DNA of 64,000 nucleotides, taken from positions 1 to 64,000 of the forward strand of contig JAEKLF010000042.1 of the NCBI GenBank assembly GCA_019509985.1. Reading direction: 5' to 3'. The notes below the pieces were generated by a model. The model saw nothing but the letters and a program-made list of their open reading frames with translations. It was not told the origin of the DNA and ran no database searches. Both the position numbers and the translations under genes were made by a program. Origin of the DNA: Burkholderiales bacterium. GTDB lineage: Bacteria > Pseudomonadota > Gammaproteobacteria > Burkholderiales > Burkholderiaceae_C. Below are positions 1-45,087 of the stretch, one piece after another. How positions within the stretch are numbered: position 1 is the stretch's first letter; each line of letters begins with the position of its first letter.

Positions 1-1008
1 CGGCATCATGACCGCGCGCACCTTGTCGGCGCCCAGCGCGTCGACGGCGATGGCCAGCACCAGCGCGGAATCGATGCCGCCGGACAGGCCGATCAGCGCG
101 CCGGGGAAGCCGTTCTTGCCCAGGTAGTCGTGCACGCCGATCACCAATGCCCTCCAGACCTGGGCTTCCATCTCGGGCTCGGGCACGACGTCGCCGCTCA
201 GGCGGTGCCTGGCGTCGACCTCGATGATCGGCAGTGCCTCCTCGAACATCGCCGCGCGCGCGGCGATCGCGCCGTCAGCCTGCACGGCAAACGAGGCGCC
301 GTCGAACACCATCTCGTCCTGCCCGCCGACAAGGTGGGCGTACAGCAACGGCAGGCCGCTCGCCCGCGCGCGTTCGGCCATGCGCTCCTCACGCTCGGCC
401 ACCTTGCCAACGTGAAAGGGTGAGGCGTTGATGACGCACAGCAGCTCGGCGCCCGCGGCCTTGGCGGCGGCGGCGGGTTCCTCGAACCAGGCGTCCTCGC
501 AGATCAGCAGGCCGACCTTGAGGCCGCGCACGTCGAAGACGACGGGACCCAGGCCCGCATCGCGGCCCGAGTAGAAATAGCGGCGCTCGTCGAAGACCTG
601 GTAGTTGGGCAGCTCGCGCTTGGCATAGGTCTGCACGACGTGGCCACCGGCCAGCACGGAGGCCGCGTTCAGGCAGGGCGGCAGCGACCAGCTGCGCTCG
701 CGCACCACGCCGTCCTCGCGCGCCATCGGGTGGCCGACGACGACCTGCAACCCTTCACAGCCCGCCAGCTCGGTCGCGATGCGCGCCAGTTGCGCCTCGC
801 AGCCGGCCAGGAAGGCTGGGCGCAGCAGCAGGTCCTCGGGCGGGTAGCCGCACAGCGCCAGCTCGGGCGTGACGACCAGATCAACCCCAGCCGCATGTGC
901 GGCGCGCGCTTGGGCAATGATGCGGTCCGCATTGCCCGCAAGATCGCCCACGGTGACATTGATCTGGGCGAGGGCGACTTTCACGGACTGCGATGGCATG
1001 GGACTCAT
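1..1008 (-). CDS. nadE: Glutamine-dependent NAD+ synthetase, 3' end outside window
   Basis: Final step of NAD synthesis: amidates deamido-NAD+ using glutamine and ATP, in the cytoplasm. The 336 codons present read from MSPMPSQSVKVALAQINVTV. The N-terminal nitrilase-like glutaminase domain shows the catalytic triad context: Glu near residue 49 (VTPELALCGYPPED), Lys in YAKRELPNYQVFDE, and Cys in LLICEDAWFEEP. The synthetase domain begins near residue 300 and its ATP P-loop SGGIDS is visible just before the window edge, so about 200 residues are missing. A second in-frame ATG at 999 is an alternative start. The start region overlaps that of the divergent gene at 998. Identification is firm; only completeness cannot be judged. 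Confidence 0.95.
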   Translation of the reverse strand, partial: MSPMPSQSVKVALAQINVTVGDLAGNADRIIAQARAAHAAGVDLVVTPELALCGYPPEDLLLRPAFLAGCEAQLARIATELAGCEGLQVVVGHPMAREDGVVRERSWSLPPCLNAASVLAGGHVVQTYAKRELPNYQVFDERRYFYSGRDAGLGPVVFDVRGLKVGLLICEDAWFEEPAAAAKAAGAELLCVINASPFHVGKVAEREERMAERARASGLPLLYAHLVGGQDEMVFDGASFAVQADGAIAARAAMFEEALPIIEVDARHRLSGDVVPEPEMEAQVWRALVIGVHDYLGKNGFPGALIGLSGGIDSALVLAIAVDALGADKVRAVMMP

Positions 1009-33705: not shown

Positions 33706-33757
33706 CGCCGCCCCGCACTCGCCGCGGGCGGAGCGCCCCGCGCCGGTGCGCGCCATC

Positions 33758-33772
33758 GCACCGCGCCTGTGC
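33758..33772 (+). promoter_or_regulatory. Possible NtrC-binding site upstream of nirB
   Basis: GCAC-N7-GTGC matches the core symmetry of NtrC sites. It lies 40-55 bases upstream of the sigma-54 promoter, closer than the usual 100 bases. A second palindrome (GGTGCG/CGCACC) overlaps it at 33745-33762. Suggestive only, because such GC words occur by chance in this genome. Confidence 0.4.
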
Positions 33773-33813
33773 CGCGCAGGGTTTGCCCCGCGGCCTGCCC
33801 TGGGAAACCGCGT

Positions 33814-33828
33814 TGGCACGTCTCTTGC
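33814..33828 (+). promoter_or_regulatory. Sigma-54 (-24/-12) promoter of nirBD
   Basis: TGGCACGTCTCTTGC matches the sigma-54 consensus TGGCACG-N4-TTGC at every fixed base, with the required ten bases between GG and GC. Transcription should start near 33840, leaving a leader of about 180 bases before nirB. NtrC, the expected activator, is encoded at 40364-41836. Confidence 0.8.
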
Positions 33829-33874
33829 GCTGATCTGTCCGAGACGCCGCGCGTGAGCCGGTGCCTGATGACAT

Positions 33875-33958
33875 TCGCCAACGGCGGCGACCCAGCGCAA
33901 CGGCGCGAATTCCTCTGGCCCCGGTCGAGCAGACAGCTGCTGACGGGGCCTTCTTCTT
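33875..33958 (+). promoter_or_regulatory. ANTAR-target leader RNA with overlapping terminator (NasT/NasR-type antitermination)
   Basis: Two hairpins have the identical hexaloop AACGGC: 33875-33890 (TCGCC/GGCGA stem) and 33896-33907 (CGC/GCG stem, with outer CCAG/CTGG pairing to 33918). A1 and G4 of the hexaloop are the bases known to be needed for ANTAR protein binding. Directly downstream, GGCCCCG (33917-33923) pairs with CGGGGCC (33944-33950), with an inner AGCAG/CTGCT stem, followed by TTCTTCTT: an intrinsic terminator sharing bases with the second hairpin's outer stem. Binding of a nitrate/nitrite-released ANTAR protein would favour hairpin 2 and prevent termination. No nasS/nasT or nasR gene is in the window. 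The rest of the 33706-34020 gap shows no coding signal. Confidence 0.7.
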
Positions 33959-34020
33959 GGTCCCTCCCAACGGCTCGTGCGCGGCCCGGCGGGCGGAGCC
34001 TGCTTCGCTAGAAACAGACC

Positions 34021-36540
34021 ATGCACATCGTCCTCATCGGCCACGGAATGGTGGGCCAGAAATTTCTCGAATCCCTGGCGGAAGGCAGCGCCGGCGCCGA
34101 CGTGCAGGTGACGGTGCTGTGCGAGGAGCCGCGCCCGGCCTACGACCGCGTGCACCTGTCGGAGTTCTTCTCGGGCAAGTCGGCGCAGGACTTGTCGCTG
34201 GTCGCGCCGGGCTTCTTCGAAAAGACCGGCTTCCAGCTGCGCCTGGCGACGAAAGCCGACGCCATCGAACGCCGCAACCACACGGTGACGACGGCCGACG
34301 GCGAGGTCATCGCCTACGACAAGCTGGTGCTGGCCACCGGTTCCTATCCCTTCGTGCCCGCGGTGCCGGGGCGCGAGCGGTCGCACTGCCATGTCTACCG
34401 CACCATCGAGGACCTGGAGGGCATGAAGGCCAGCGGCGCGGTGTCCAAGACCGGCGTCGTCATCGGCGGCGGACTGCTGGGGCTGGAATGCGCGAAGGCA
34501 CTGCGCGACATGGGCCTGCAGACCCATGTCGTCGAGTTCGCGCCGCGGCTGATGGCCGTGCAGATCGACGAGACCGGCGGCCGCGTGCTGCGCACGAAGA
34601 TCGAGGAACTCGGCGTCGAGGTGCACACCGGCCGCAACACGGTGGAGATCACCGACGGTGCGATGGCCCGTCACCGACTGGTCTTCACCGACGGCACCTG
34701 GCTGGAGACCGACATGCTGGTGTTCTCCGCCGGCATCCGCCCGCGCGACGAGCTGGCGCGGCAATGCGTGCTGGCCATCGGCCCGCGCGGCGGCGTCGTC
34801 GTCGACGACCACTGCCGCACCAGCGACCGCAACGTCTACGCCATCGGCGAGGTCGCGGCCTGGAACGAGCAGACCTACGGGCTCGTCGCCCCAGGGTACG
34901 AGATGGCTCGCGTGGCGGCCCGGCACATCACCGGCAATGCGGAGGCGGCCTTCCCCGGCGCGGACCTCTCCACCAAGCTCAAGCTGATGGGCGTGGACGT
35001 GGCCAGCATCGGCGACGCGCACGGCAAGACGCCGCACTGCCGCAGCTACCAGTACGTGGACGAGCGCAAGCAGGTCTACAAGAAGATCGTCACCAGCCAG
35101 GACGGCAGCAAGCTGCTGGGCGCCGTGCTGGTGGGCGACGCGAGCGAGTACGGCACGCTGCAGCAGATGGTCCTCAACGGCATCAAGCTGCCGGCCGAGC
35201 CCGAGTTCCTGATCCTGCCCAGCAGCGACGGCAAGGCCAAGGTCGGCCTGGGCGTGGACGCGTTGCCCGACAGCGCCCAGCTCTGCTCGTGCAACAACGT
35301 CAGCAAGGGCCAGATCTGCGCCGCGGTGGGCGACGGCGCGACGACCATGAGCGCCATCAAGGCCTGCACCAAGGCCGGCGCCACCTGCGGCGGCTGCGTG
35401 CCGCTGGTCACCCAGGTCATGAAGTTCGAGATGGCCAGGCGCGGCATGGCCGTCAACAACCACCTCTGCGAGCACTTCGCGCACTCGCGCCAGGAGCTCT
35501 ACCACCTGGTGCGCGTCGGTGGCATCAAGAGCTTTGGCGAGCTGCTGGGCCGGCACGGCCATGGCCTGGGCTGCGACATCTGCAAGCCCGCGGCGGCCAG
35601 CATCTTCGCGTCCTGCTGGAACGAGTTCGTGCTCAAGCCCGAACTGGCCAGCCTGCAGGACAGCAACGACTACTACCTCGGCAACATCCAGAAGGATGGC
35701 AGCTACTCCGTCGTGCCGCGCATGCCGGGCGGCGAGGTGACGCCAGAGGGCCTGATCGCCGTCGGCCAGGTCGCGAAGAAGTACGGCCTGTACACCAAGA
35801 TCACCGGCGGCCAGCGCGTCGACCTGTTCGGCGCGCGCGTGGAGCAGTTGCCTCTGATCTGGGAGGAGCTGATCGCGGCGGGTTTCGAGAGCGGCCATGC
35901 CTACGGCAAGTCGCTGCGCACGGTGAAGAGCTGCGTGGGCAGCACGTGGTGCCGCTACGGCGTGGGCGATTCGGTCGGTCTGGCCGTGGAGCTGGAGCAC
36001 CGCTACAAGGGCCTGCGCTCGCCGCACAAGATCAAGTTCGGCGTGTCGGGCTGCACCCGCGAATGCGCCGAGGCGCAGGGCAAGGACGTCGGCATCATCG
36101 CCACCGACAAGGGTTGGAACCTCTACGTCTGCGGCAACGGCGGCATGAAGCCACGCCACGCCGAGCTGATCGCCAGCGACCTGGACAAGGCCACGCTGCT
36201 GCAGCTCATCGACCGCTTCCTGATGTTCTACGTGCGCACGGCCGACCGCCTGCAGCGCACCAGCACCTGGCGCGAAAACCTCGAAGGCGGCCTGGACTAC
36301 CTGAAAGACGTGCTGATCGGCGACTCGCTGGGCATCGCCGCCGAGCTGGAGGCGCAGATGCAGCAGGTCGTCGACACCTACCAGTGCGAATGGAAGACCG
36401 CCGTGACCCAGCCCGAGGTGCGCCAGCGCTTCCGCTCCTTCGTCAACAGCGAGACGCCGGACGAGCAGATCGTCTTCGTGAAGGAGCGCGGCCAGATCCG
36501 CCCGGCTCGCGCCGACGAACGCGAAGAAACGCCCGCCTGA
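34021..36540 (+). CDS. nirB: Assimilatory NAD(P)H nitrite reductase, large subunit
   Basis: 839 residues. Cytoplasmic six-electron reduction of nitrite to ammonium. Domains in order: FAD/NAD(P)H-binding pyridine nucleotide-disulfide reductase fold (1-310; GHGMVG at the FAD site, VVIGGGLLGLE at the NAD site), a BFD-like [2Fe-2S] domain at about 415-480 (LCSCNNVSKGQI, CTKAGATCGGC), the nitrite/sulfite reductase ferredoxin-like half-domain, and the siroheme/[4Fe-4S] domain at about 630-700 with CVGSTWC and GCTREC supplying the four cluster Cys. It starts at ATG after a long regulated leader. nirD follows after 14 bases. Expression is probably controlled by NtrC/sigma-54 and by antitermination. 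Confidence 0.96.
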   Translation: MHIVLIGHGMVGQKFLESLAEGSAGADVQVTVLCEEPRPAYDRVHLSEFFSGKSAQDLSLVAPGFFEKTGFQLRLATKADAIERRNHTVTTADGEVIAYDKLVLATGSYPFVPAVPGRERSHCHVYRTIEDLEGMKASGAVSKTGVVIGGGLLGLECAKALRDMGLQTHVVEFAPRLMAVQIDETGGRVLRTKIEELGVEVHTGRNTVEITDGAMARHRLVFTDGTWLETDMLVFSAGIRPRDELARQCVLAIGPRGGVVVDDHCRTSDRNVYAIGEVAAWNEQTYGLVAPGYEMARVAARHITGNAEAAFPGADLSTKLKLMGVDVASIGDAHGKTPHCRSYQYVDERKQVYKKIVTSQDGSKLLGAVLVGDASEYGTLQQMVLNGIKLPAEPEFLILPSSDGKAKVGLGVDALPDSAQLCSCNNVSKGQICAAVGDGATTMSAIKACTKAGATCGGCVPLVTQVMKFEMARRGMAVNNHLCEHFAHSRQELYHLVRVGGIKSFGELLGRHGHGLGCDICKPAAASIFASCWNEFVLKPELASLQDSNDYYLGNIQKDGSYSVVPRMPGGEVTPEGLIAVGQVAKKYGLYTKITGGQRVDLFGARVEQLPLIWEELIAAGFESGHAYGKSLRTVKSCVGSTWCRYGVGDSVGLAVELEHRYKGLRSPHKIKFGVSGCTRECAEAQGKDVGIIATDKGWNLYVCGNGGMKPRHAELIASDLDKATLLQLIDRFLMFYVRTADRLQRTSTWRENLEGGLDYLKDVLIGDSLGIAAELEAQMQQVVDTYQCEWKTAVTQPEVRQRFRSFVNSETPDEQIVFVKERGQIRPARADEREETPA

Positions 36541-36554
36541 CCCAAGGAGCCGAC

Positions 36555-36878
36555 ATGACCTACACCCCCATCTGCGCCGTCGACGACATCCTGCCCAACA
36601 CCGGCGTCGCGGCTCGCATCGGCGGCCGCCACGTGGCCGTGTTCCGCGTCGGCAGCGACGACTTCCACGCCATCGACAACATCGACCCGCGCTCCGGCGC
36701 GAGCGTGCTGTCGCGCGGCCTCGTCGGCAACCTGGGTGAGCGCGTCGTCGTCGCGTCGCCGCTCTACAAGAACCATTTCGACCTCAGCACCGGCGAATGC
36801 CTGGAAGCGCCCGAGCAATCGGTGCAAGCCCACGCCGTGCAGGTGCAGGACGGCCGCGTGCTCGTCGCGCTGAGATGA
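36555..36878 (+). CDS. nirD: Nitrite reductase small subunit
   Basis: 107 residues, preceded by AAGGAGC. Rieske-like fold without the cluster-binding Cys/His residues, as normal for NirD: PICAVDDILPNTGVAARIGGRHVAVFRV, AIDNIDPRSGASVLSRGLVG, VVASPLYKNHFDLSTGECLE. It partners NirB in nitrite reduction. The dispersed repeat copy B begins four bases after its stop codon. Confidence 0.95.
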   Translation: MTYTPICAVDDILPNTGVAARIGGRHVAVFRVGSDDFHAIDNIDPRSGASVLSRGLVGNLGERVVVASPLYKNHFDLSTGECLEAPEQSVQAHAVQVQDGRVLVALR

Positions 36879-37070: not shown

Positions 37071-37883
37071 ATGGCCTACGTCGTACCCACCGAGTTCGTG
37101 ACCAAGATGGTCGATTCCGGTGAATCCAAGCTGCTGATGTCCACCCGCGACACGCTGATCAGAGCCTACATGGCCGGCGCCATCCTGGCGCTGGCCGCCG
37201 CGTTCGCGGTGTCGGTCAGCGTCAACACCGGCAACCCGCTGCTCGGCGCGGTGCTGTTCCCGGTCGGCTTCATCCTGCTCTATCTGATGGGCTTCGACCT
37301 GCTGACCGGCGTGTTCACGCTGGTGCCGCTGGCCGTGCTGGACAAGCGCCCCGGCGCGACCTGGGCCGGCGTGCTGCGCAACTGGACGCTGGTGTTCATC
37401 GGCAACTTCGCCGGCGCGCTGACGGTGGCCGTCTTCATGGCCATCATCTTCACCTTCGGCTTCAGCGAAGCGCCCAACGCCATCGGCCTGAAGATCGGCA
37501 GCATCGGCGAGAGCCGCACGGTGGGCTACGCCGCCCACGGCGCGGCCGGCATGCTGACCCTCTTCATCCGCGGCGTCATGTGCAACTGGATGGTCTCCAC
37601 CGGCGTCGTCGCAGCCATGATGTCCACGTCGGTCTCGGGCAAGGCCATCGGCATGTGGATGCCGGTGATGGTGTTCTTCTACATGGGCTTCGAGCACAGC
37701 ATCGTCAACATGTTCCTGTTCCCGTCGGGCCTGATGCTGGGCGGCAAGTTCACGCTGATGGACTACTTCATCTGGAACGAGATCCCCACCGTCGTCGGCA
37801 ACCTCGTGGGTGGCATCACCTTCGTCGGCCTCACGCTTTACTCGACGCACTACAAGACGGCGCCCAAGCGCAAGCTCGCGTGA
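37071..37883 (+). CDS. nirC: Formate/nitrite transporter family channel, NirC-type
   Basis: 270 residues with six membrane helices of the FNT pentameric channel family: MSTRDTLIRAYMAGAILALAAAFAVSVSV (helix 1), GFDLLTGVFTLVPLAVLD (first P-loop-like break), the GNFAGALTVAVFMAI helix, IRGVMCNWMVSTGVVAAMMS with the conserved central-pore region, and FEHSIVNMFLFPSGLMLG with the central His. The position directly after nirBD indicates nitrite import or export for the reductase. A truncated copy of the dispersed repeat starts at its stop codon. Confidence 0.93.
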   Translation: MAYVVPTEFVTKMVDSGESKLLMSTRDTLIRAYMAGAILALAAAFAVSVSVNTGNPLLGAVLFPVGFILLYLMGFDLLTGVFTLVPLAVLDKRPGATWAGVLRNWTLVFIGNFAGALTVAVFMAIIFTFGFSEAPNAIGLKIGSIGESRTVGYAAHGAAGMLTLFIRGVMCNWMVSTGVVAAMMSTSVSGKAIGMWMPVMVFFYMGFEHSIVNMFLFPSGLMLGGKFTLMDYFIWNEIPTVVGNLVGGITFVGLTLYSTHYKTAPKRKLA

Positions 37884-37945
37884 GCCCCTCGTCCGGCCGC
37901 GCTCCGCTGAACGAGGGCGTGCCCAGCCGGTCCCCCACGGGGACG
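37883..37945 (+). repeat. Dispersed intergenic repeat, short copy C (nirC to PP2C/kinase)
   Basis: GCCCCTCGTCCGGCCGCGC, TCCGCTGAACGAGGGCG and GGTCCCCCACGGGGAC correspond to the first about 65 bases of copy B. It starts at the last base of the nirC stop codon and ends shortly before the next gene, sense orientation again. Confidence 0.65.
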
Positions 37946-37956
37946 AAGTCATTGAC

Positions 37957-39675
37957 ATGACGCTTCAGATCGCCGTTGGCCAGCACTCCGAGGCCGGCGT
38001 CAAGCCGCTGAACCAGGACTTCCACGGCGTCGCCCAGCCGACCGACGCGCAGCGCCGCTCGCGCGGCATTGCGCTGGCGATTGCCGACGGCATCAGCAGC
38101 AGCGCGGTCAGCCAGGTGGCCAGCGCAGCCGCCGTACGCGGCTTCCTGGAGGACTATTACGGCACGTCGGAAGCCTGGACCGTGCGCCGCGCCGCTCAAT
38201 GCGTGCTGGCCGCCACCAACGGCTGGCTGCATGCGCAGACGCAGCGCGGCGACGGCCGTTTCGACAAGGACCGCGGCCATGTCTGCACCTTCAGCGCGCT
38301 GGTCTTCAAGGGCCGCGAGATGCACCTCTTGCACGTGGGCGACACGCGTGTGTACCGCGTCCACGCCACGGCGCTGGAGCAGTTGAGCCAGGACCACCGC
38401 GTACGGCTGGACGGCGGCCAGACCTATCTGGGCCGCGCACTCGGCATCAGTCCGCACCTGGAAGTCGACCACGCCAGCTGGCCGACCGAGGTGGGCGAGA
38501 CCTTCCTGCTGGCCACGGACGGCGCCTACGAGCGGCTGGATGCGGCGCTGGTGCAGTCCACGCTGGCAAGCCACGGCGACGACCTGCAGGCGGCTGCCGA
38601 GGCGCTGGTGGCGGCGGCGCTGGCCCGGGGCAGCCAGGACAACGCGACCGTCATGCTGGCGCGCGTCGAGGCCCTGCCCGCGCCACTCGCGCCGCGGCGG
38701 CACGAGGGGCTGCGCCTGCCGCCCCGGCTCGCGCCGCGCCAGGAGTTCGAAGGCTACCGCATCGTGCGCGAGCTGCACGCCAGCACGCGCAGCCAGGTCG
38801 TGCTGGCCGTGGACGCGGACGGGCGCGAATGGGCACTCAAGCTGCCCACGGCCGACCTGGCCGGCAACGCGCGCGAACTGGACCGCTTTGCCACCGAGGA
38901 ATGGGTGGCCCGGCGCGTCGACAGTCCGCACATCATCAAGGCCGCGCCGCCCGAACGCAAGCGCGGGCACCTTTTCACCGCCGTCGAGTTCATCCACGGC
39001 CAGACGCTGGCGCAGTGGATGACCGACCACCCACGGCCCGGGCTGGACGAGGTGCGCGGCATTGCCGACCAGATCGCCCGCAGCCTGCAGGCGCTGCATC
39101 GCAAGGAGATGCTGCACCAGGACCTGCGGCCCGAGAACCTGATGATCGACCGCCAGGGCACGGTCATCCTCATCGACCTCGCCTCGGCCCATGTGGCGGG
39201 CCTCAGCGAAGGCCTGGGCGACGCACGCGCGCTGGAGCTGGCCGGCACGCTGCAGTACACGGCGCCGGAATACTTCACCGGCGAAGGCGGCTCACCCGTG
39301 GCCGAGCTGTTCTCGCTGGCCGTGCTGATCTACCAGATGCTGACCGGCGCCCTGCCCTACGGCCTGCAGGTGCCCCAGGTGCGCGGCGTGCGCGACCTGC
39401 ATAAGCTGCAATACGTGCCGCTGCGCACGCGCCGACCGGACCTGCCGGAATGGCTGGATCGCGTGCTGCGCAAGGCCTTGCAGCCGCAGGCGGCGCGCCG
39501 GCAGCAGGCGCTGTCGGAGTTCCTGCATGACCTGCATGCGCCGGGGCCGGAGTTCATGAAGCGGGACCGCACGCCGCTGCAGGAGCAGCATCCGCTGCTG
39601 TTCTGGCGGGGGTTGACGTTGGTGTTTGGGTTGGCGACGGTGGTGCTGCTGGGGTTGAGAGTCAGCGGGTACTGA
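37957..39675 (+). CDS. PP2C-type phosphatase/Ser-Thr kinase fusion of the nitrite cluster
   Basis: 572 residues. Residues 1-245 are a PP2C phosphatase: NQDFHG, IALAIADGISSS, LLHVGDTRVYR, LLATDGAYERL and QDNATVML provide the metal-binding Asp set. Residues about 265-520 are a kinase fold with departures from consensus: no Gly-rich loop (ELHASTRSQVVLAV), Lys in EWALKLP, HQDLRPENL for HRDLKPEN, DLA for DFG, and APEYF. A C-terminal membrane helix follows (LTLVFGLATVVLLGLRV). A similar gene lies between nasA and nirB in Pseudomonas, so it probably modulates nitrate/nitrite assimilation, but the target is unknown. The ATG at 37957 lies just after repeat copy C. Confidence 0.88.
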   Translation: MTLQIAVGQHSEAGVKPLNQDFHGVAQPTDAQRRSRGIALAIADGISSSAVSQVASAAAVRGFLEDYYGTSEAWTVRRAAQCVLAATNGWLHAQTQRGDGRFDKDRGHVCTFSALVFKGREMHLLHVGDTRVYRVHATALEQLSQDHRVRLDGGQTYLGRALGISPHLEVDHASWPTEVGETFLLATDGAYERLDAALVQSTLASHGDDLQAAAEALVAAALARGSQDNATVMLARVEALPAPLAPRRHEGLRLPPRLAPRQEFEGYRIVRELHASTRSQVVLAVDADGREWALKLPTADLAGNARELDRFATEEWVARRVDSPHIIKAAPPERKRGHLFTAVEFIHGQTLAQWMTDHPRPGLDEVRGIADQIARSLQALHRKEMLHQDLRPENLMIDRQGTVILIDLASAHVAGLSEGLGDARALELAGTLQYTAPEYFTGEGGSPVAELFSLAVLIYQMLTGALPYGLQVPQVRGVRDLHKLQYVPLRTRRPDLPEWLDRVLRKALQPQAARRQQALSEFLHDLHAPGPEFMKRDRTPLQEQHPLLFWRGLTLVFGLATVVLLGLRVSGY

Positions 39676-40363: not shown

Positions 40364-41836
40364 TCAAACATCCAACCCCAACTCCTGAATCTTTCGCGTG
40401 ATCGTGTTCCGCCCGATGCCCAGCTTCTGCGCGGCCTCGATGCGGCGGCCGCGGGTGATGTCCAGCGCCGTCAAGATGAGTTGGGCCTCGAAGCGCTTGG
40501 TCAGCGCGTCCCACACATCCGGCTCGCCGGCCAGCAGGCGGGCGCGGGCGTCGGCGGCCATGTCGGCCAGCCAGCCTTCGCCGCTGCTGGTGCTGGCGGG
40601 TGCGGCGACCGGCTGCGGCGCGACAGCGCCGGGCTGGGCTTGCGGCGCGTTGGTCATCGCCGTGCCGGACGGTGCTGCGACGTAGCCGGGCTGCAGTTCG
40701 TCCGGCAGGTCCTTGGGCTCGACGACCTGGCTGGGCGCCATGACGCTGAGCCAGTGGCAGATGTTCTCGAGCTGGCGCACGTTGCCGGGGAAATCGAAGG
40801 CGGTCAGCACGGTCAGTGCCGCGTCGGACAGACGCTTGGGTTCGACGCCCAGCTCGGTCGCGCTGCGCTGCAGGAAGTGGCGAGCCAGCGAGGCGATGTC
40901 TTCGCGGCGTTCGCGCAGCGGCGGCAGGCGCAGGCGGATGACGTTGAGGCGGTGGAACAGGTCCTCGCGGAACACGCCCTGGCGCACGCGGTCTTCCAGG
41001 TTCTGATGGGTGGCCGCGATGACGCGCACATTGCTGCGCATCGGGCTGTGGCCGCCGACGCGGTAGAACTGGCCGTCGGACAGCACGCGCAAGAGGCGCG
41101 TCTGCAGCTCGAAAGGCATGTCGCCGATTTCATCGAGGAAGAGCGTGCCGCCATCGGCCTGTTCGAAGCGGCCGCGCCGCGAGGCCTGCGCGCCGGTGAA
41201 GGCGCCGCGTTCGTGGCCGAAGAGCTCGCTCTCCAGCAGGTCCTTCGGGATGGCCGCCGTGTTGATGGCGACGAACGGGCCTTCGCCGCGCGGGCTGTGC
41301 TTGTGCAGCGCGCGGGCCACCAGTTCCTTGCCGGAGCCGCTTTCGCCCGTGATCATCACGGTGACATTGCTTTGCGACAGGCGGCCGATGGCGCGGAAGA
41401 CGTCCTGCATCGCCGGTGCCTGGCCGAGCATCTCGGGCACCTGCGCGGCGGCCTCCTGCTCGCCGGCCTCGCGCTGGCTTTCCTCCTGCGCGCGGCGGAT
41501 CAACTCGACGGCACGCGGCAGGTCGAAGGGCTTGGGCAGGTATTCGAAGGCGCCGCCCTGGAAAGCGGATACGGCGCTGTCGAGGTCGGAATAGGCCGTC
41601 ATGATGATGACGGGCAGGGCCGGCAGGCGCGCCTTGACCTTGGCCAGCAGTTCCAGGCCCGAGCCCCCGGGCATGCGGATGTCCGAGACCAGCACCTGCG
41701 GTGAGTCGTCGTCGAGCGCGGCGAGCATGTCGCGCGCATTGCTGAAGCTGCGCACCGGCAGCCCCTCGCGGGCCAGGGCCTTCTCGAGCACGAAGCGGAT
41801 CGAGTGGTCGTCGTCAACAACCCAGATGGATTTCAT
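40364..41836 (-). CDS. ntrC: Nitrogen regulation response regulator NtrC
   Basis: 490 residues. Sigma-54 activator phosphorylated by NtrB under nitrogen limitation. Receiver domain 1-120 with phospho-Asp in VLVSDIRMPGGSG; AAA+ domain about 145-370 with Walker A GESGSGKE, the sigma-54 contact motif GAFTGA, and Walker B GGTLFLDEIGD; C-terminal Fis-type helix-turn-helix (RRIEAAQKLGIGRNTITRKIQEL). Targets within this window probably include the sigma-54 promoters at 33814 (nirB) and 45088 (glnA). It follows ntrB after 34 bases, and the start is supported by a normal NtrC N-terminus (MKSIWVVDDDHSIRFVLEKAL). Confidence 0.96.
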   Translation of the reverse strand: MKSIWVVDDDHSIRFVLEKALAREGLPVRSFSNARDMLAALDDDSPQVLVSDIRMPGGSGLELLAKVKARLPALPVIIMTAYSDLDSAVSAFQGGAFEYLPKPFDLPRAVELIRRAQEESQREAGEQEAAAQVPEMLGQAPAMQDVFRAIGRLSQSNVTVMITGESGSGKELVARALHKHSPRGEGPFVAINTAAIPKDLLESELFGHERGAFTGAQASRRGRFEQADGGTLFLDEIGDMPFELQTRLLRVLSDGQFYRVGGHSPMRSNVRVIAATHQNLEDRVRQGVFREDLFHRLNVIRLRLPPLRERREDIASLARHFLQRSATELGVEPKRLSDAALTVLTAFDFPGNVRQLENICHWLSVMAPSQVVEPKDLPDELQPGYVAAPSGTAMTNAPQAQPGAVAPQPVAAPASTSSGEGWLADMAADARARLLAGEPDVWDALTKRFEAQLILTALDITRGRRIEAAQKLGIGRNTITRKIQELGLDV

Positions 41837-41870: not shown

Positions 41871-42968
41871 TCAAGGCAAGGGCAGCGTGATTCGGAAATT
41901 CGTCAGGCCTGGCTCGCTCTCGCAATCGATCATGCCCTGGTGTTGCTGGGCGATCGTCTGCGCGAGCGTGAGTCCGAGGCCCGAGCCGCCCTCCCGCCCT
42001 GAGACCAGGGGAAAGAAGATGCGATCCCGGATCTCGGCGGGGACGCCGGGACCGTTGTCCTCGATATGCAATTCCAGTGCCAAGCGCCAGCGCTGCTTAC
42101 CAATCGTGACCTGTCGGGCCACGCGCGTGCGCAGCACGATCTGCGCGTCGCCGGCCGCGATGCGCGAACCGAGCACTTGAGCGGCGTTCTGCACGATGTT
42201 CAGCGTCATCTGGATCAGCTGCTCGCGATCGCCGCGGAAATCGGGCAGCGAGGTGTCGTAGTCGCGCGGGATGTCCAGGCCGCGTGGGTACTCGATGAGC
42301 ACCAGCGCCCGCACCCGCTCGCAGATCTCGTGGATGTTGACGTCGCCCACGACATGGGCGCGGCGGTGTGGCGCGAGCAGCCGGTCGACGAGGCTCTGCA
42401 GCCGGTCGACCTCGTGCACGATGACCTGGGTGTATTCGGTCAGCTCCGGGTTGTCGTCCTGAAACTCCATGGCCAGCAGCTGCGCCGCGCCGCGGATGCC
42501 GCCGAGCGGGTTCTTGATTTCATGCGCCAGGTTGCGCGTGAGTTCCTTGGTCGCCTGGACCTGGTCGAGGCTGCGCTCATCGCGGTCCTGGCGCGCCTGC
42601 TGGGCAATCTCGATGAGCTCGACGAGCACACGCGGCTCGCCATCGACGCCGGCGTCCATCTGCGACACGATGACGTGCACCGGCAGGCCGTCCTCGTGGG
42701 CCCAGGCGCCGCGGCGCAGCGATGCATCAAAGCGGCTGCTGGAGTACTGGTTGGCGGCCACGCCGGCCAGGGTTTCGGTCAGGCGCTGGGGATCGTCGAA
42801 CCAGTCGGGCAGCTGGGCGCGCTGCACGGCGCGGCGCGACAGCCGCATGACGTTCTCGAAGGCGGCATTGGCGAACAGGCATTCGCCATCGGCACGGACG
42901 ACGACCACCATGGTCGCCAGCAGATCCAGGCCGGCGAACTCGGCCGGCAGCAAGGAGGTATCAGTCAT
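41871..42968 (-). CDS. ntrB: Nitrogen regulation sensor kinase NtrB
   Basis: 365 residues from the ATG at 42968. Soluble sensor kinase/phosphatase controlled by the PII protein. A PAS domain (about 15-120; TMVVVVRADGECLFANAAFENVM) is followed by a HisKA box with phospho-His (NLAHEIKNPLGGIRGAAQLLAMEF, about 155) and a HATPase domain (NIVQNAAQ, DNGPGVP, GSGLGLTLAQTI). An ATG six codons upstream is less likely. Gene order glnA, DUF4124, ntrB, ntrC on one strand is the usual betaproteobacterial arrangement. Confidence 0.95.
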   Translation of the reverse strand: MTDTSLLPAEFAGLDLLATMVVVVRADGECLFANAAFENVMRLSRRAVQRAQLPDWFDDPQRLTETLAGVAANQYSSSRFDASLRRGAWAHEDGLPVHVIVSQMDAGVDGEPRVLVELIEIAQQARQDRDERSLDQVQATKELTRNLAHEIKNPLGGIRGAAQLLAMEFQDDNPELTEYTQVIVHEVDRLQSLVDRLLAPHRRAHVVGDVNIHEICERVRALVLIEYPRGLDIPRDYDTSLPDFRGDREQLIQMTLNIVQNAAQVLGSRIAAGDAQIVLRTRVARQVTIGKQRWRLALELHIEDNGPGVPAEIRDRIFFPLVSGREGGSGLGLTLAQTIAQQHQGMIDCESEPGLTNFRITLPLP

Positions 42969-42991
42969 GAGGCGCCGAGGCGCCACGCGCC

Positions 42992-43594: not shown

Positions 43595-45010
43595 TCACAG
43601 CGCGTAGTACATGTCGAACTCGACCGGGTGGGTGGCCATGCGGAAACGCGTCACTTCCTGCATCTTCAGTTCGATGTAGGCGTCGATGTACGAGTCGGTG
43701 AACACGCCGCCCTTGGTCAGGAAGGCGCGATCCTTGTCCAGGTAGTCCAGCGCCTGGTCGAGGCTGTGGCAGACGGTCGGGATCTTCGCGTCTTCCTCGG
43801 GTGGCAGGTGGTACAGGTCCTTCGTGGCGGCTTCGCCCGGGTGGATCTTGTTCTCCACGCCGTCCAGGCCGGCCATCAGCAGCGCGCTGAAGGCGAGGTA
43901 GGGGTTGGCGGAAGGATCGGGGAACCGCGCTTCGATGCGGCGGCCCTTGGGGTTGCCGACGTAGGGGATGCGGATCGATGCCGAGCGGTTCTTGGCCGAG
44001 TAGGCCAGCTTCACCGGGGCTTCGAAGCCAGGCACCAGGCGCTTGTATGAGTTCGTGCCGGGGTTGGTGATGGCGTTCAGCGCGCGGGCATGCTTGATGA
44101 TGCCGCCGATGTAGTACAGCGCGAACTCGCTCAGGCCGGCATAACCGTCACCCGCGAACAGGTTCTTGCCGTCCTTCCAGACCGACTGGTGCACGTGCAT
44201 GCCGGAGCCGTTGTCGCCGACCAGCGGCTTGGGCATGAAGGTCGCGGTCTTGCCGTAGGCGTGGGCGACGTTCTGGATGATGTACTTCTGCAACTGCAGC
44301 CAGTCGGCGCGCTGGACCAGCGAGCTGAACTTGGTGCCGATTTCCATCTGGCCCGCGTTCGCCACTTCGTGGTGATGCACTTCGACCGGGATGCCACACT
44401 GCTCGAGGATCAGGCACATTTCCGAGCGCATGTCCTGGCCGCTGTCGACCGGGGGCACGGGAAAGTAGCCGCCCTTGACGGTGGGGCGGTAGCCGGAGTT
44501 GCCGTGCTCGTATTCCTTGGCCGAGTTCCAGGCGCCTTCTTCGGACTCGATCTTGAAGAACGAGCCGGACATGTCATTGCCCCAGCGCACGCTGTCGAAG
44601 ATGAAGAACTCCGGCTCGGGGCCGAAATAGGCGGTGTCGCCCAGGCCGGAGGCCTTGAGATAAGCCTCGGCGCGCTTGGCCAGCGAACGCGGGTCGCGCT
44701 CATAGGCCTTGCCGTCCGCGGGGTCGACCACGTCGCAGGACAGGATCAGCGTCGGCTCTTCGAAGAAGGGGTCGACGTTGGCGGTGTTGGGATCGGGCAT
44801 GAGCAGCATGTCCGAGGCTTCGATGCCCTTCCAGCCGGCGATCGAGGAGCCGTCGAAGGCGTGACCCGACGTGAACTTGTCTTCATCGAAATGGGAGACG
44901 GGCACGGAGACGTGCTGCTCCTTGCCACGGGTGTCGGTGAAGCGGAAATCAACGAACTTGATTTCGTTTTCCTTCACCATGTTCATCACATCGGCGACGG
45001 TCTTGGCCAT
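43595..45010 (-). CDS. glnA: Glutamine synthetase, type I (GSI-beta)
   Basis: 471 residues, typical of the dodecameric, adenylylation-controlled form. ATP-dependent amidation of glutamate, taking the ammonium made by NirBD. Motifs: beta-grasp region [37 protein letters not shown], the ATP-binding [16 protein letters not shown], and the region around the adenylylated Tyr, [10 protein letters not shown] (about 397). The ATG at 45010 is preferred to a TTG one codon upstream. Transcription probably starts from the sigma-54 type promoter at 45088-45102. Confidence 0.97.
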
Positions 45011-45087
45011 CAATAGCTCCTAGCGGAATCGAGAGGGTGGGTTGCTGCCGCCAACGCACACGCGCCAGCGGCCACGGGGGAATCAAA

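Follow-up and report, generated by a model that had tools for sequence, protein, structure and literature searches.

The DNA upstream of nirBD analysed here very probably forms a two-gate control element, in which NtrC and sigma-54 polymerase start transcription and an ANTAR-type attenuator then decides on its continuation; the case for it is built on sequence comparison. Throughout this text, the window is the whole stretch of DNA under analysis, 64,000 nucleotides from a member of the Burkholderiales. The sigma-54 site, the two AACGGC hairpins and the terminator that an earlier note on this DNA had claimed were read directly where the note had placed them, and are listed here together with the surrounding genes.

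33758–33772, + strand: NtrC-like enhancer site GCAC-N7-GTGC, lying 56 bases 5' of the sigma-54 site
33814–33828, + strand: sigma-54 -24/-12 promoter TGGCACG-N4-TTGC, TGGCACGTCTCTTGC
33840–33866, + strand: expected 5' end of the transcript, its start placed from the -12 position; P1 position
33875–33890, + strand: hairpin 1, TCGCC-AACGGC-GGCGA, with ANTAR-type hexaloop; P2 position
33896–33907, + strand: hairpin 2, CGC-AACGGC-GCG, with a stem of 3 bp; lies in a 16-base insertion specific to the clade
33917–33958, + strand: intrinsic terminator, consisting of a 34-base hairpin GGCCCCG...CGGGGCC (33917–33950) and TTCTTCTT (33951–33958)
34021–36540, + strand: nirB, large subunit of NADH nitrite reductase, 839 aa (Pyr_redox_2, Fer2_BFD, NIR_SIR)
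36537–36878, + strand: nirD-like Rieske_2 protein
37071–37883, + strand: formate/nitrite transporter family protein, nirC-like (from Pfam; NCBIfam matches all below cut-offs)
37810–39675: protein combining PP2C phosphatase and kinase domains, immediately 3' of the nirBD-transporter genes
40364–41836, - strand: ntrC (TIGR01818 above cut-off)
41871–42986, - strand: ntrB (glnL) (NF008293 above cut-off)
43595–45013, - strand: glnA

According to the model that we favour, nitrogen limitation would allow NtrC, near 33758–33772, to activate sigma-54 polymerase at 33814–33828, as the conserved DNA sites suggest. By default, to judge from the conserved RNA, the leader would then fold the terminator at 33917–33958 and transcription would end before nirB. 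In response to nitrate or nitrite, an ANTAR protein would bind the hexaloop of hairpin 1 and polymerase would pass; in the window's clade, hairpin 2 is probably bound as well. The reader may be either a NasT-like protein encoded beside nrtA or an ANTAR-PilJ-PilJ protein encoded beside a NarK-type transporter.

Window-type nirB genes (86–100% identity) are present in 15 of the 20 genus genomes searched. In all 15 leaders the GGCA and TTGC of the sigma-54 site are invariant, which bears out the promoter proposed in the earlier note, and TGGCACG-N4-TTGC matches what we take to be the sigma-54 consensus. By itself such a site is unremarkable in 64 kb, because two matches with at most one mismatch (one of them exact) were found against 2.74 expected. 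The NtrC link, likewise proposed earlier, is strengthened by an element that the earlier note did not mention: the inverted repeat GCAC-N7-GTGC, presumably the NtrC consensus, lies 55–78 bases upstream of the promoter in 15/15 genus leaders, with an extra copy at 88 bases in L107. In dinucleotide-shuffled genus leaders it occurs in a mean of 0.19 out of 15, and in two at most. Furthermore, ntrC, ntrB and glnA lie 3.8–8.5 kb past the end of nirB on the opposite strand, and the ntrC product is the likely activator of the nirB sigma-54 promoter.

Two other genes may be mentioned at this point. The PP2C/kinase protein behind the transporter gene could possibly act in nitrogen-related Ser/Thr signalling. 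A second NirB paralogue in the same genome is 37% identical; its sigma-54 site stands only about 50 bases 5' of the start codon (C85:88072-88128), and there is hence little space for a leader RNA.

Downstream of the promoter, hairpin 1 occurs in 15/15 genus leaders. Its stem is invariant, and for this reason gives no covariation either way; its loop, AANGNN, is C:G-closed, with positions 1, 2 and 4 (A, A, G) fixed while positions 3, 5 and 6 vary. Fourteen of the 15 also retain the terminator hairpin; L107 (G004) has hairpin 1 and no such terminator. The earlier note is supported in placing an ANTAR-type hexaloop followed by an intrinsic terminator before nirBD. Hexaloop positions are counted here from 20 bases beyond the first base of the sigma-54 site. 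Related families have P1 mostly at 15–21 and P2 mostly at 42–58 or 73–88. Hairpin 1, at 46, therefore occupies the P2 place.

The two clearest sister leaders in the window's own genome both serve nitrate-uptake genes, which adjoin the two genes for ANTAR proteins described below. A sigma-54 site followed by an AANGGN hexaloop is matched exactly twice in 6.5 Mb (reversed control, 0), before nrtA (C85:74350) and before the gene of a NarK-family transporter (C85:84116; TIGR00886 with 237 bits, below the cut-off of 311.7). Two wider patterns were matched 20 and 18 times (reversed controls 11 and 8); among these matches, stems of at least 5 bp are found only before nrtA and nirB, the transporter stem has 4 bp, and three further matches (L182, L190, L192) also have 4-bp stems. 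Behind the NasT-like gene, which in our own genome, where the neighbour was checked, is followed by nrtA, a sigma-54 promoter is present in 14 of 16 genus loci; the P2 hexaloop accompanies it in 14/14 and the P1 hexaloop in 11/14. As for the NarK-type leader (C85:84116-84260, L122, with genus loci L123–L132), we observe a sigma-54 site, an invariant AATGGT hexaloop and a variable stem: GCAATGGTGC is present in 11 of 12 genus loci and an uninterrupted hairpin of at least 3 bp in 10 of 12. Neither a T-run terminator nor a second hexaloop was seen in this leader. The exact GCAC-N7-GTGC repeat was found within 130 nt of none of the nrtA promoters (0/14) and none of those of the NarK-type transporter (0/11).

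An ANTAR-domain protein, which the earlier note presupposed, is encoded in the genome (97.8% complete, 358 contigs) at least twice: PF03861 has two strong matches, both on contig C85, and a weak third. One strong match is the NasT-like protein adjoining nrtA, whose N-terminal part has no Pfam match. The other (P0001; L004:16807-18240 on C85, minus strand) is an ANTAR-PilJ-PilJ gene divergent from the NarK-type transporter gene; it comprises 477 codons from a TTG, though its true start may be later, and Pfam places ANTAR at 189–240 and PilJ at 244–333. Among the regulators that the earlier note had named (NasS, NasT, NasR), a NasT-like protein was thus found, while neither strong ANTAR protein contains a NIT domain and no cytoplasmic NasS was recognised among eight NMT1_2 matches, of which the two best were inspected; both of these begin, by eye, with Tat-like signal peptides.

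A profile of 14 P0001-type proteins matches NasR (4akk) over the ANTAR domain, transducer 6gcv at profile positions 63–178 (E 6.5e-5) and PilJ structures at positions 185–296 (E 2.5e-5), with only a weak match to NarX (E 0.14). Because the matches to 6gcv, which we take to be McpN, and to the PilJ structures fall on separate stretches, we assign two PilJ modules to this protein. The first module carries GxxRMLSQR or GxxRMLAQR in 17/17 aligned sequences; the second reads GRQRM in three distant members (L171, L172, and L135 from G018) and TRLRLLSQ in the 14 close ones. Homologues of P0001 are present in 17 of the 20 genus genomes, the copies of G018 and G019 having only 38–46% identity in the C-terminal part. 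Of 40 other relatives, five have a homologue, two of these being short and interrupted by a stop. Across the order, at least 3 of 300 genomes have one at E <= 1e-20, own genome included; this is a lower bound, as at most five first-look candidates were scored per genome. According to the available text of PMC8199190, NasR too has another residue in place of a glycine in its paired GxxR motifs, and a paper cited there names nitrate binding by the PilJ domain of McpN in its title. Like NasR, the ANTAR-PilJ protein joins ANTAR and a nitrate-sensor-like module with GxxR boxes in one chain; unlike NasR, in which an N-terminal NIT sensor precedes a C-terminal ANTAR domain, it has two PilJ modules, and these are C-terminal. 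Among the titles listed by a literature search, none evidently reports an ANTAR-PilJ protein, with subscription papers mostly outside its coverage.

Which of the two proteins reads the nirB leader cannot be told from their presence, since they occur together: P0001 is found in 14 of the 15 nirB genomes, and G015 (draft, 95% complete) has the leader and neither strong ANTAR gene. We give a little less than an even chance to the view that the NasT-like protein is the reader, as in Pseudomonas, and that the ANTAR-PilJ protein has other targets. The available text of PMC12830290 describes NasT as reading NalA, the nirBD leader of Pseudomonas, and the NasT-like gene is itself followed by the leader with sigma-54 site and P2 hexaloop in most genus loci, often with both hexaloops. 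On the other hand, the failure to recognise a cytoplasmic NasS partner and the N-terminal part without Pfam match both speak against this view.

A second question concerns the layout of the RNA. In the window, hairpins 1 and 2 are joined by the five-base linker CCCAG, and an outer stem of hairpin 2 (CCAG 33892–33895 with CTGG 33915–33918) has two G in common with the terminator. The earlier note took the two hairpins for a standard ANTAR P1-P2 pair, with formation of the terminator opposed by the outer stem of hairpin 2. This we regard as unlikely, even though both loops read AACGGC and are C:G-closed, the linker is short and a pair with the same loop twice would seldom arise by chance: among 20,000 dinucleotide-shuffled versions of 33839–33962, a single A..G.. 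hexaloop with a stem of at least 5 bp appeared in 5.2%, a hexaloop pair (stems of at least 5 and 3 bp) in 0.66%, and a pair with identical loops in 0.01%. Conservation tells against it. Both hexaloop hairpins with A1 and G4 are found in the window and three relatives, where hairpin 2 forms part of the 16-base insertion (L096, which is the window, L098, L099 and L103), and thus in 4/15 genus leaders, compared with 15/15 for hairpin 1. The loops are identical in three of these four and differ in L098. The CCAG/CTGG stem, and with it the sharing of two bases with the terminator, is real in the window and absent from all other genus leaders; at 4 bp it is moreover weak against a terminator of -23.5 kcal/mol. 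Finally, hairpin 1 occupies the P2 place of other families. Among the 11 genus leaders that lack the insertion, seven have at the P1 place a hairpin with the loop GCYGMA, which is without A1 (8 pairs, with 91% of cells paired over 10 sequences); this hairpin is degenerate in the window and degenerate or different across the window's clade. Since hairpin 1 sits at the P2 place and the P1-place hairpin is degenerate or different in this clade, the two identical hexaloops of the window are, on this comparative reading, P2 and a newcomer, not P1 and P2. The evidence for the leader lies mainly in the comparison across the genus.

The terminator dominates the fold of the full leader, with -53.7 kcal/mol compared with -49.9 when hairpins 1 and 2 are formed; 'off' is therefore likely the default state. 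The segment 33866–33962, folded alone, shows no unusual stability (z -1.42), and hairpin 1 is missing from its minimum-energy structure. The alignment of 14 terminator sequences includes three pairs that are changed on both sides and still pair, all in the inner stem of L105; the T tract is weaker, TTCCTACTGG, in L098 and L103. A mechanical terminator scan of the window listed nothing at 33917–33958, in our view owing to an internal loop in the stem.

Hairpin 1 and the terminator share no bases in the genus. The gap between them is 10–12 bases in eight of the genus leaders scored and 26–27 in the window and L099 (L098 and L103, which have no T run, were left out); an overlap scored for L110 and L016 is an artefact of an over-long fold window. 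Alignment and folding of the genus leaders revealed no conserved antiterminator or competing helix. Two candidates were considered and rejected. The antiterminator CCGGTGCC/GGCCCCGG reaches a pairing probability of about 0.99 while the 3' arm of the terminator is absent; with that arm present it is 15.5 kcal/mol worse (-38.2 vs -53.7), and as a general mechanism it fails because it is found in the window only and is not conserved. A long-range helix P0 (GAGG/CCTC), with 85% of cells paired and two pairs changed on both sides, clashes with the outer stem of P1 and lacks robustness. Without overlap, a bound protein might stop termination by blocking nucleation of the terminator hairpin, or by contact with polymerase.

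To see how far the arrangement extends, we considered 80 nirB loci of named relatives, the best 80 of 591 relatives found and thus close to the query; this set and the genus set share one member, L016 and L109 (G017) being apparently one contig. A sigma-54-like site lies within 500 nt in 53 of the 80 and in none of the remaining 27. Among these 53 leaders, an A..G.. hexaloop hairpin falls within the P2 window (38–95) in 45 and within both the P1 (8–32) and P2 windows in 25, and 8 have no hexaloop. Any closing pair was allowed, since many P2 loops are closed by U:G; if a C:G pair is demanded, the P2 count is 32/53. Over 200 shuffles of the 53 leaders, P2 hexaloops have a mean of 1.6 (maximum 5) and P1 with P2 a mean of 0.015 (maximum 1), and 15 other loop letterings occur in 0–5 of 53 in either window. 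The A1/G4 loops emphasised in the earlier note are accordingly far above chance among relatives. That the hexaloops are chance GC-rich hairpins, and that nothing more is present than a sigma-54 promoter and an attenuator that works constitutively, would fit the GC-rich leader and the absence of hairpin 1 from the minimum-energy fold, but is most improbable given A1/G4 conservation in 15/15 genus and 45/53 named leaders and the same loops in the sister leaders.

In 11 of the 80 named loci, a long ANTAR reading frame is found no more than 3 kb away from nirB, and L065 has a partial one; all 11 have the P2 hexaloop in their leaders, and each of the eight frames that were scanned combines NIT and ANTAR (NasR type). 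The attenuator half is either less general than the hexaloop or often of another type, for a T-run terminator 3' of the hexaloop was detected in 20 of the 45 leaders and none in 25, by a detector that also missed the weak-tract terminators of L098 and L103. Scored for the relation of hexaloop and terminator, the 45 divide into 17 with overlap, 3 with a gap and the 25 without T-run terminator; several of the 17 are artefacts of over-long fold windows, and we rely on the 11 in which the P2 arm visibly is the terminator arm (L057, L058, L064, L066, L067, L076, L079, L084, L086, L087, L095). These Paraburkholderia/Comamonas-type leaders, like 11 of the RF03032 loci described next, are a classical exclusive switch.

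The same elements recur in the Rfam narK RNA (RF03032), whose model consensus, GGCaCA...cUUGCU followed by CC-AACGGC-GG, corresponds to a sigma-54-like site with a hexaloop, as in the window leader. Judged from its sequence, RF03032 looks like a sigma-54 promoter with a dual-hexaloop ANTAR leader. The window itself scores 14.2 and 12.4 bits, below the gathering score of 43.2; at gathering, Rfam gave nothing in the window and only a tRNA over 17 related loci. In the own genome, 14 weak matches at E <= 10 include none over the cut-off, and 13 of 14 control genomes match as well. At E <= 1e-4, 13 of 200 genomes of the order have a locus (L212–L224), three of them above the family cut-off. The sigma-54 site, P1 and P2 were located in 12 of these 13, L219 not being found by pattern on either strand, and in 11 of the 12 P2 is complementary (at least 6 pairs) to the arm preceding the T run. 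Unlike the window leader, these loci have both the P1 and the P2 hexaloop and a terminator that mostly overlaps P2. By short sequence motifs, the genes downstream or near are NrtA-like in 10 loci, NirB-like in one and EAL in one. In the last (L224), the leader stands before a frame with GHEALLR, which we read as an EAL-domain protein; nitrate antitermination may possibly be linked there to c-di-GMP.

Several observations count against the two-gate model. One canonical hexaloop is conserved in the genus, compared with two in described ANTAR targets; there is no overlap between the conserved hairpin and the terminator, and a T-run terminator was not detected in 25/45 named leaders. G015 has no strong ANTAR protein, L107 has no terminator, and the fold disfavours hairpins 1 and 2. 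Among named relatives, 27/80 have no sigma-54-like site and 8/53 no hexaloop, and the GCAC-N7-GTGC repeat is missing at the nrtA and NarK-type promoters. From the hexaloop in 45/53 promoter-bearing named leaders, it would seem that a sigma-54 promoter followed by nitrate-gated antitermination is a frequent arrangement at nirBD in Burkholderiales. The genus leader offers a natural layout without hairpin–terminator overlap, an overlap that is thought to be central to ANTAR action. An ANTAR protein with two PilJ modules in tandem also emerges from this work, as does a possible explanation of the Rfam narK RNA.

Beyond the two-gate model, a further proposal is tentative, and we think it doubtful: the nitrate leaders of the genus may be read by the ANTAR-PilJ-PilJ protein, which would then represent a third design of nitrate-sensing ANTAR regulator, a single chain in which the sensor follows the RNA-binding domain. 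The terminator that this protein would override at nirB has no bases in common with the conserved hairpin that it would bind, and the window's clade would have gained a downstream hexaloop in place of the decayed upstream one. If true, ANTAR-PilJ-PilJ antitermination at nirB would differ from the usual choice between two exclusive RNA folds.

The published systems allow a comparison, limited in each case to the available text of the sources. In NasR and EutV targets, two hairpins with A1 and G4 are described, the second overlapping the terminator (PMC7496416, PMC8934654), and in SELEX NasR favours hexaloops that are closed by C:G and have A at position 1 and G at position 4 (PMC7496416). In the Paracoccus nasA leader, a change in HI abolished expression and HII mattered little (PMC5424462). 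Like nasF/NasR and eut/EutV, the window leader has a C:G-closed A1/G4 hexaloop followed by an intrinsic terminator; unlike them, as far as these descriptions go, the genus leaders have a single conserved canonical hexaloop that lies 10–12 bases clear of the terminator, and the second hexaloop of the window's clade is confined to that clade and placed downstream. NalA, the Pseudomonas nirBD leader, is started by sigma-54/NtrC and opened by NasT (PMC12830290, citing Romeo 2012 and Nie 2024). With NalA of P. aeruginosa and P. putida, known to us by description, the window leader shares a start at sigma-54 and NtrC-like sites 5' of nirBD (15/15 in the genus, where NtrC control is what we infer), a terminating hairpin and a putative ANTAR reader; it differs in that no NasS was recognised, two ANTAR candidates are encoded and the hairpin layout is another. 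The control principle is thus already published for NalA, and the window leader is an altered layout of a known control.
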